The notes under the pieces were generated by a model. That model did not search any database, had not been told where the DNA came from, and saw only the letters and a program-made list of their open reading frames with translations. From assembly GCF_030505395.1 (NCBI RefSeq), contig NZ_CP130044.1:2465001-2529000 (forward strand): DNA of 64,000 nucleotides, written 5' to 3'. The stretch comes from Asticcacaulis sp. ZE23SCel15 (GTDB lineage: Bacteria > Pseudomonadota > Alphaproteobacteria > Caulobacterales > Caulobacteraceae). Below are positions 52,467 to 54,436 of the stretch, piece by piece; position 1 is the stretch's first letter, and every line of letters begins with the position of its first letter. Position numbers and translations under genes: made by a program.

Positions 52467-53429
52467 CTATACTTCAGTAAGCACGCGCGGCAGCTTGAAG
52501 GTCACCGTCTCCTGCACGCCGTTGCTCTCGATCACCTCAGCGTCATAGACATCGCCAATGGTCTTGATCAGGTCGGAGATCAGGTTTTCCGGGGCCGACG
52601 CCCCCGCCGATACGCCCACAGTAGAGACGCCCTCAAACCATGACCAGTCGATGTGGCTGGCGTCATCAATCAGATGTGCGGCCCTGGCCCCGCCGCGCAG
52701 GGCGACTTCGACCAGACGCTGGGAGTTGGAGGAGGCCTTCGAGCCGATAACCAGAAACAGATCGCAATCGGCGCTGACGTTTTTGACCGCATCCTGCCGG
52801 TTGGTGGTGGCGTAGCAGATGTCTTCTTTGTAGGGCATTGATATATTGGGAAACCGGCTTTTCAGGATGCCGACAATCTCAGAGGTATCATCAACCGACA
52901 GGGTCGTCTGCGTGACGAAGGCCAAATTTTTAGGATCAAGCGGTTCAAAAACGCGGGCTTCGTCGGCGGTTTCGATCAGTCTGACCACACCGTCCGGAAG
53001 CTGGCCCATGGTGCCGACGACTTCGGGGTGACCGGCGTGACCGATCAGGATGATTTCGCGGCCTTCGCGGTGGTGGCGCTCGGCCTCAACGTGGACTTTG
53101 GACACCAGCGGGCAGGTGGCGTCCAGAAAGAACATCTGCCGGTTCTGGGCGGCGGCGGGCACGGATTTTGGGACACCATGGGCAGAAAAGACCACAGGCC
53201 GGTCGGTCGGGCACTGATCCAGCTCTTTGACGAACACGGCCCCCAGCGCTTTCAGGCGATCAACCACATGCTTATTGTGCACGATTTCGTGGCGCACATA
53301 GACGGGGGCACCATAAAGTTCGATGGCGCGCTCCACGATCTGAATGGCGCGATCAACGCCAGCGCAAAAGCCGCGCGGTGTGGCCAGATAAACTTTCAGG
53401 GGCGATTTGGAGGCAGCAAGGTTCGACAT
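52467..53429 (-). CDS. ispH: 4-hydroxy-3-methylbut-2-enyl diphosphate reductase
   Basis: The last enzyme of the MEP isoprenoid pathway; its [4Fe-4S] cluster makes IPP and DMAPP. It has 320 residues from the ATG at 53429 (a 16-codon upstream extension looks spurious). The three cluster cysteines are in [22 protein letters not shown] and [10 protein letters not shown]. The catalytic EH-type segment [14 protein letters not shown] and the SNSQRL motif (here SSNSQRLVE) are present. rnhA follows. Upstream is a 317-base gap with two large hairpins. Confidence 0.96.
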
Positions 53430-53549: not shown

Positions 53550-53625
53550 CTAGTATCGTGAATTCGAAGTTCGCCCCATTTCGATGTCAGCTACAAAGCG
53601 AACTTAGAATTCAAAACGATACTAG
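53550..53625. repeat. Large hairpin 1 of a homologous tandem pair
   Basis: Arms 53550-53574 and 53598-53625 pair over about 25 bases: outer CTAGTATCG with CGATACTAG, inner TGAATTC and AAGTTCGC with GCGAACTT and GAATTCA. One mismatch and a three-base bulge interrupt them; the loop is 23 bases. The same architecture recurs in the neighbour at 53638-53712 with different but still paired outer bases. Confidence 0.8.
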
Positions 53626-53637
53626 AGTTAGTTAATT

Positions 53638-53712
53638 CTGGTGTCCTGTTGAATCTGAAATTCGCTTAAGGTTGATATAGCCATGAGGCGAATTTCAGAT
53701 TCAGGACACCAG
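53638..53712. repeat. Large hairpin 2 of a homologous tandem pair
   Basis: Arms 53638-53665 and 53688-53712 pair perfectly except for a three-base bulge: outer CTGGTGTCC with GGACACCAG, inner GAATCTGAAATTCGC with its inverse. The loop is 22 bases and resembles that of hairpin 1 (GATATAGCCA against GATGTCAGCTA). GANTC methylation motifs occur in both arms (GAATC, GATTC). It ends 34 bases before the next ATG. Nothing else is seen in the 53430-53746 gap. Confidence 0.8.
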
Positions 53713-53746: not shown

Positions 53747-54436
53747 ATGTCGCTGATTTCGTCTATTCCTTTGCGTCAATTATTAGCCGGTATGGCTTTG
53801 GCGGCGGTGGCCTTAAGCGCTGTACCGACCGACAGCTTTGCGCAACAGCGCCGCGGCGACCGCGATTCGGGCCGTGAAAACACCGAAAAGTCCGCAGCCG
53901 ATAAGGAAAAAGACAAGGAAGAATGGGAAGGCCGCGACCTGCGCCTCGATAAGCGCCGCGCTGACGGCCCATGCCCGTTTGTTAAGGTGCTGTATGACGC
54001 CGCCCGCTATCAGGATTTTCAGGATGGCAAGGTCGCCACCGCATCGGTCAAGTGGACCGGTGAGATCAACGGTGTCGTTTCCGACTGCGCCTACAGGGGC
54101 GGTGAGCCGATTGAGCTTGAAATGATGATCGGCTTTTCGCTGGGCCGTGGCCCGGCCGCTGAGGGTAACCGCAATAACTACCGCTACTGGGTGGCGGTGA
54201 CCGATAAGGATCAGGCCGTTCTGGCCAAGAAATATTTTGATCTGCCGGTTACCTTTGCCGATGATCAGAGCCGTGTTGATGTGGCCACCAAGCTTGAAAA
54301 TATCGTGATCCCGCGCGCCGCGGCTTCTGTGGCAGGCTCGAATTTTGAGGTTCTGGTGGGCTTTGACGTGACGCCGGAAATGGCCGAGTTCAACCGCGAG
54401 GGCAAGCGTTTCCGTTATGTGACTTCGGCGCAGTAA
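53747..54436 (+). CDS. Exported hypothetical protein (229 aa)
   Basis: The signal peptide ends near SFAQ (about residue 33). A strongly charged segment follows (about 34-72, rich in Arg, Asp, Glu, Lys), then a folded domain (about 74-229) with two cysteines, PCPFVKV and SDCAYRG, that could pair. The domain looks beta-rich, with YWVAVTDKDQAVLAKKYF and FEVLVGFDVTPEMAEF. It resembles conserved secreted proteins of Caulobacterales without assigned function. AGGGG lies about 12 bases upstream. It may be co-transcribed with argS, which follows after about 65 bases. Confidence 0.7.
   Translation: MSLISSIPLRQLLAGMALAAVALSAVPTDSFAQQRRGDRDSGRENTEKSAADKEKDKEEWEGRDLRLDKRRADGPCPFVKVLYDAARYQDFQDGKVATASVKWTGEINGVVSDCAYRGGEPIELEMMIGFSLGRGPAAEGNRNNYRYWVAVTDKDQAVLAKKYFDLPVTFADDQSRVDVATKLENIVIPRAAASVAGSNFEVLVGFDVTPEMAEFNREGKRFRYVTSAQ

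Follow-up and report, generated by a model that had tools for sequence, protein, structure and literature searches.

The analysed window, a stretch of 64,000 nucleotides from the genome of Asticcacaulis sp. ZE23SCel15, carries a 163-bp element of two hairpins at positions 53550–53712 (plus strand). It lies in the gap between two divergent genes, ispH on the minus strand (52467–53429; LYTB Pfam match of 317.5 bits) and a gene encoding a 229-aa protein with no Pfam match (53747–54436). CTAG borders the element on the left and CCAG on the right, where most other copies have CTAG. Read along the plus strand, the left outer arm (LE; 53550–53574, 25 nt), a loop of 23 nt (53575–53597) and the left inner arm (53598–53625) make up hairpin 1 (53550–53625, 76 nt). 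A 12-nt linker (53626–53637), which in relatives frequently resembles ATTCAATAAG(TTG), leads to hairpin 2 (53638–53712, 75 nt), made up of the right inner arm (53638–53665), a loop of 22 nt (53666–53687) and the right outer arm (RE; 53688–53712, 25 nt). Both stems have 25 positions, 9 outer and 16 inner, plus one 3-nt bulge formed by extra nucleotides of the inner arm (53614–53616 on the left, 53647–53649 on the right); hairpin 1 has one mismatch (G-A) and hairpin 2 has none. Two GANTC motifs, the recognition type of CcrM, lie in hairpin 2: GAATC in the inner arm (53651–53655) and GATTC in the outer arm (53698–53702), the latter at a fixed offset from the end.

An earlier note on this DNA, made from the letters alone, had described two hairpins of equal length with loops of 22–23 nt in the divergent gap, and had proposed that both strands be folded. 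The hairpins, their loops and their position between the two genes were all confirmed, although the lengths are not equal. With RNA parameters, the plus strand folds at −29.3 kcal/mol (z −7.8) for hairpin 1 and −46.9 kcal/mol (z −10.2) for hairpin 2. The minus strand reaches z values of −7.2 and −10.7, so that stability on both strands spans z −7.2 to −10.7, and in each of the four folding runs (two hairpins, two strands) 0 of 200 shuffles was as stable. That other genomes carry the whole unit as well also places the hairpins beyond chance.

When the right arm of hairpin 2 is reverse-complemented and set against the left arm of hairpin 1, 6 of 25 positions differ, and all six differences are compensated by the partner within the same hairpin, just as the note had estimated. 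Its further claim of a three-base bulge at the same stem position holds as to the bulge and fails as to the arrangement. The bulges lie on the 3′ arm of hairpin 1 and on the 5′ arm of hairpin 2, i.e., both on inner arms, and the hairpins are therefore mirror images and not a tandem pair. Hairpin 2 is related to hairpin 1 in inverted orientation, and a single 25-nt sequence recurs, in different versions, in all four arms. With 19 of 25 positions identical, LE and RE constitute terminal inverted repeats, as is characteristic of MITEs. The note's alternative reading, an inverted-repeat element in two diverged copies, comes close: the structure is an inverted repeat and, as set out below, mobile, but it is a single unit composed of two mirror-image hairpins.

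A DNA search, with one genome compared per species, returned matches in 33 of 61 genomes at E values up to 1; those whose best E value fell below 0.001 all belonged to Asticcacaulis. In its own genome the window element was the only place found; a copy 100% identical to it is present in one other genome (G004). Boundaries were set for 42 further full Asticcacaulis copies, which measure 159–167 bp (114–170 bp among relatives overall) and end in CTAG or in a tetranucleotide one or two bases removed from it, with no conservation of the adjacent outside base. The flanks of the copies are unrelated, the exceptions being eight pairs that are orthologous between species and some short repeats in common, and whole-unit copies occupy unrelated loci inside single genomes (G001, G006). 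The 163 bp thus form one dispersed mobile unit, short, multi-copy and at unrelated loci like other MITEs. Beyond the right end of one copy (L033) lies a different, very abundant palindromic repeat of ~40 bp (AGCGAAATGACTTTAGGTGGAAACGCCATTTCGCT), with dozens of occurrences in G001, G006 and G019. We also observed short hybrids of ~60 bp that join the left outer to the right outer arm (L054, L087, L088, and L106 in Limobrevibacterium) as well as single-hairpin copies (L042, L052, L053), possibly deletion products or minimal mobile forms.

A covariance model (R1) built from 37 elements, the search the earlier note had called for, extended this distribution. With at most 19 candidates scored per genome, 27 of 149 Caulobacteraceae genomes matched at E values up to 0.001, namely 15 Asticcacaulis, including that of the window, and 12 from nine further genera; no match was obtained in at least 8 genomes of Asticcacaulis. 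The lack of any second occurrence, which the note had said would speak against its reading, is thus not what was found. In the window's own genome the model added one further element (L375; contig 1, 500978–501144), which is diverged but built on the same plan, has no GANTC at the usual place and has arms that differ from those of the window element, indicating that one genome hosts different subfamilies. Among distant relatives, G116 (118), G428 (107), G393 (46) and G126 (33) are rich in matches, counts that include both strands of one place because the element is nearly dyad-symmetric and that are therefore not copy numbers; many of the copies in distant relatives share the plan and have very different stems. 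The exact 20-base end pattern was found outside Asticcacaulis at 7 of the 31 loci of a named collection, including loci in Dehalococcoidia and Entotheonella MAGs. An element of ~100 bp is common to two of these loci (L103 and L122, one in each MAG); its ends are similar but its interior is different, which suggests related MITEs across phyla. No match to the element was obtained in plasmid and phage collections (blastn, E 1e-5), nor any to the exact 20-base pattern in IMG/VR.

The insertion history was read from empty alleles. For 14 copies, 60 + 60 flanking bases were joined without CTAG and searched against 11 genomes; five sites were read (L036, L041, L047, L048, L065), four were too eroded (L038, L040, L066, L073), and L033, L034, L046, L072 and L074 lay outside the reading. 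Of the 21 empty alleles at the five sites, 10 contain CTAG once, 4 CCAG once and 3 CTAA once, 17 in all. Three of the five sites have CTAG, in all five alleles at L036, all four at L047 and one of five at L065; CTAA occurs at L048 (3/3) and CCAG at L041 (4/4). The four alleles that are neither CTAG nor a one-base variant are all from L065, where one reads TGGT and three read CTTC or CCTC with one base fewer. A single CTAG or variant in the empty alleles implies that the unit inserted there and now has one copy of it at either end; the element has duplicated its target site, a further trait of MITEs. The duplicated length could be two or four bases, since the sequence fits either, and TA would be expected for IS630. 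At the site of the window element, three relatives (G002, G013, G009) lack the element, and in all three the junction is CTTG, which contains no TA, and the adjoining G run is one base shorter. One of them, G009, carries a different insertion of ~130 bp at this locus (L370), some 30–40 bases from the junction, towards ispH.

The outer arms point to a candidate mover. The window's right-end pattern, with up to 2 mismatches, occurs in 12 of 385 alphaproteobacterial genomes, its own included, and the reversed pattern, used as a control, in 0 of 385. Several of these matches mark a two-hairpin element; others come after a transposase-like coding sequence. At one locus (L132) the end is found after a gene for an IS630 transposase, at a distance of 1,172 bp from a second end of this kind; the gene is split into two fragments in different frames, with scores of 169.6 and 102.6 bits against an IS630 model that has a cut-off of 100, and DDE_3 is present in the second fragment. 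The reverse complement of RE agrees with the right ends of such insertion sequences at 22 (G260), 21 (G370), 21 (G126), 19 (G243) and 19 (G422) of 25 positions and with their left ends at 13–17. For LE the corresponding values are 17–21 and 13–18, and with the IS630 remnant of G260 they are 21 for the right and 18 for the left end, compared with at most 16 of 25 in 20,000 shuffles. A related IS630 (49% identity) in G125 sits between C and G, i.e., in CTAG, in all 8 copies. The accessible text on ISY100, an IS630 element, describes ends of 24 bp that are bound via two helix-turn-helix motifs and duplication of TA (PMC2170065), and the arm length of our element fits one such IS630 end. By sequence comparison, the outer 25 nt thus resemble the ends of IS630-family (Tc1/mariner) elements in other alphaproteobacteria.

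Because the unit is dispersed, occupies CTAG-type sites with the tetranucleotide at each end and has IS630-like outer arms, we consider it probable, at roughly 0.8, that it is a non-autonomous MITE moved in trans by a transposase of the IS630 (Tc1/mariner) family. Several observations weigh against this assignment: both window ends are nearer to IS right ends (17–22 of 25) than to left ends (13–18 of 25), the empty site of the window lacks the TA, four of five empty alleles at L065 deviate from CTAG, and erosion kept four further sites from contributing. Most directly, a cognate autonomous element was not found in the same genome, where DDE_3 has no match, and this lowers the assignment to IS630-derived MITEs. 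DDE_3 matches occur in 11 of 25 Asticcacaulis genomes, and no IS630 with a pair of such ends was seen at the loci examined (30 of 48 listed); isolated partial likenesses to the ends were noted, TAATGTCATC in L162, L163 and L167 and CTAGTGTCG in L167. In other Caulobacteraceae genera no such end pair was present at eight IS630 loci in 4 of the 12 element-bearing genomes, and among 16 genomes chosen for carrying the insertion sequence or the element only G126 combined the element with an insertion sequence of the matching kind. A cognate insertion sequence is, however, a supporting and not a strictly defining feature, because non-autonomous elements can outlive their partner. One Asticcacaulis genome (G022) has 15 equal-scoring matches to an IS630-type transposase of ~378 aa; the four loci compared (L181, L183, L186, L189) are >99.6% identical, and neither such ends nor a two-hairpin element was found there.

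The target alone cannot name the mover, because the IS5-like MITEPsy1 also uses a CTAG-type target in the portion of its description available to us (PMC3189936). Movement by an IS5/IS427-type transposase would be compatible with this and with IS711, for which the accessible text gives YTAR as the target (PMC2266754), and YTAR also covers CTAA and CTAG, as read at empty sites. Since the matching ends flank IS630-family transposase genes, we regard this alternative as unlikely, as judged from a survey of ends that covered the IS630 family.

The paired arms could alternatively reflect a structured RNA, such as a regulator, an attenuator or an RNase III target, maintained by selection on base pairing, as the earlier note had proposed. 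The pattern behind this proposal is real. In the 37 elements the proportion of paired cells is 95.3%, and both sides have changed in 30 of 50 pairs, compared with 13.4 in shuffles (0 of 500 as high), and three Asticcacaulis groups show 22 compatible double changes where ~2.4 would be expected if the changes were independent. In the eight orthologous pairs, changed positions make up 34 of 800 in stems, 56 of 519 in loops and linker and 204 of 2315 in the 150-bp flanks, one of which (L037/L051) includes another repeat. The rate of change in stems is thus half that in loops and flanks, which implies that something holds them after insertion; 28 of the pair changes are one-sided and 3 compensated. 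However, selection on a plus-strand RNA should favour G-U among the one-sided stem changes, and it does not: the 81 such changes in 43 copies comprise 15 G-U, 26 A-C and 40 transversions, with neither G-U nor A-C significantly favoured (p 0.12), so that selection on RNA is not indicated, although a lean to the other strand is conceivable at this p value. These are also the unpaired substitutions at other loci that the earlier note had named as evidence against its reading. Rfam returned only a tRNA from the window at gathering score, and a simple scan detected no promoter-like or terminator-like site. Sub-threshold matches of the hairpins to eukaryotic miRNA models in Rfam were judged to be chance matches to hairpins. 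Mobility and patchy distribution of the copies likewise argue against a maintained RNA, and transposase-site arms or template-switch correction would explain the pattern without one. The stems may be kept by template-switch repair of palindromes, by exchange between copies or by selection, in a comparison whose numbers are small. Copied insertion sequence ends together with correction at the DNA level fit the covariation at least as well as selection on RNA, and we consider a structured RNA improbable.

Two further regularities distinguish the element, and both look new. We compiled a convenience set of 133 elements comprising that of the window, the 42 Asticcacaulis copies, 14 from a class scan and the named collection and 76 scored relatives; partial and single-hairpin copies and four whose left end was eroded or poorly positioned (L108, L140, L154, L157) were excluded. 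First, 2–5 extra nucleotides are present on the inner arms of both hairpins in 121 of the 126 elements of this set that were scored for bulges, while the outer arms retain the spacing of insertion sequence ends. Second, in the outer part of the ends, GANTC occurs in exactly one end in 116 of the 133 elements, in neither in 17 and in both in 0; orientation by the model can swap LE and RE. Counted by distinct end pairs, the values are 49 of 63, 14 and 0, always from the 11th nucleotide and with a variable middle base (GATTC 33, GAATC 14, GAGTC 2). No probability is given for this asymmetry because the elements are related by descent. The end that bears the motif switches among subfamilies, being the other one in G028, G036, G447 and G464. 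Among IS630 ends, GANTC is present in 4 of 5 right ends (the exception being G126) and in 0 of 4 left ends.

A motif fixed in place in exactly one end and stems conserved after insertion might mean that the element has been domesticated as a site for CcrM/GcrA or a nucleoid protein, with mobility a matter of the past. Presence and absence differ between close species, and several IS630 ends carry GANTC themselves, both of which make such a role doubtful.

REPINs are inverted hairpin pairs in intergenic regions, and in this respect the element resembles them, but the REP-like origin that the earlier note had raised, with a linked RAYT (Y1) transposase gene to be looked for, is hardly tenable: Y1_Tnp is present in only 3 of 16 Asticcacaulis genomes (G008, G010, G014; 5, 6 and 10 element matches with both strands counted) and absent from the other 13, including that of the window and the two with the genus maximum in the DNA search (G001 and G006; 30 and 29 matches), and neither insertion at CTAG nor IS630-like ends agree with it.

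If the element is an IS630-type MITE, as we favour, the following sequence of events can be envisaged. The duplicated target would be the TA inside CTAG, and the IS630 transposase would bind the 25-nt outer arms. Each hairpin may have arisen when one insertion sequence end was copied in inverted orientation. The 2–5 extra nucleotides of the inner arms would then disturb the spacing between the two half-sites bound by the transposase, leaving the inner arms as disabled ends, so that the whole unit would move. Dam methylation times the transposition of IS10, and as a guess, a GANTC in one end could allow CcrM methylation to do the same here. A wider conjecture would unite such elements in a pan-alphaproteobacterial superfamily of two-hairpin MITEs with spacing-shifted decoy inner arms and a one-end CcrM site that ties transposition to the cell cycle, and would include the CIR and Bru-RS repeats. 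This is a tentative idea that we think rather less likely to be right than wrong by a good distance; if true, it would account for the GANTC and the mobility of both repeats together. The analysis puts forward a connection, open to testing, between transposition and the methylation of DNA in the cell cycle, and it cautions that strong covariation of paired hairpins may stem from mobile DNA palindromes and not from a functional RNA.

The closest known repeats by plan are the Caulobacter CcrM-associated intergenic repeats, CIR, reportedly so described by Chen and Shapiro in 2003. In the accessible text of a 2007 review, these are alphaproteobacterial intergenic repeats, found in Brucella too, of two long inverted repeats and a linker, with TA termini and a conserved GANTC; they measure ~110 bp, have GANTC at or in the terminal loop and are scored as lacking terminal inverted repeats, with target-site duplication unknown, and more information on their mobility mechanism is called for (PMC2229807). 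Our element likewise consists of two arms and a linker, has TA at its ends and carries GANTC at intergenic sites of alphaproteobacteria, with relatives in other Caulobacteraceae genera. Compared with this partial description, and by description only, it differs in size (163 bp vs ~110 bp) and in the position of GANTC, which lies in the stem from the 11th nucleotide, and it is for these reasons not filed as CIR, although kinship would be expected. For two-arm repeats of this kind the present analysis offers a concrete mover, an IS630-type transposase, and a concrete target, CTAG. Literature on alphaproteobacterial IS630 miniature inverted repeats, Asticcacaulis transposable elements and CcrM/GANTC transposition, in its mostly non-subscription coverage, contains no description of the element.

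According to the same review text, RUP of Streptococcus pneumoniae is a small intergenic repeat of 107 bp with a TA target, for which mobilisation by IS630-Spn1 has been proposed, and Correia/NEMIS of Neisseria is small and has TA termini and 24-bp terminal inverted repeats; in such non-CIR repeats a stem-loop results from pairing of the two ends (PMC2229807). As far as these summaries go, RUP thus shares small size, intergenic position, TA target and proposed IS630-type mover with the window element, whereas it is shorter than 163 bp and has an end-pairing stem-loop without arms and linker instead of two hairpins; Correia/NEMIS differs by its end-pairing stem-loop, its other host group and the lack of a two-hairpin plan. 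The Bru-RS repeats of Brucella, associated with IS711, are given in the available part of their description as palindromic and 103–105 bp long (PMC2267715), i.e., palindromic like our element but shorter, a likeness taken from the description. With ISY100 and IS630 elements in general, the likeness lies in the 24-bp ends and TA duplication seen in the accessible text (PMC2170065) and in the family of the transposase at L132. These are autonomous and carry their own transposase gene, and the insertion sequence ends read here are not palindromic hairpins, whereas the window element, which contains no gene, is apparently a passenger of transposons of the IS630 type; its relatives occur in other alphaproteobacteria as well.
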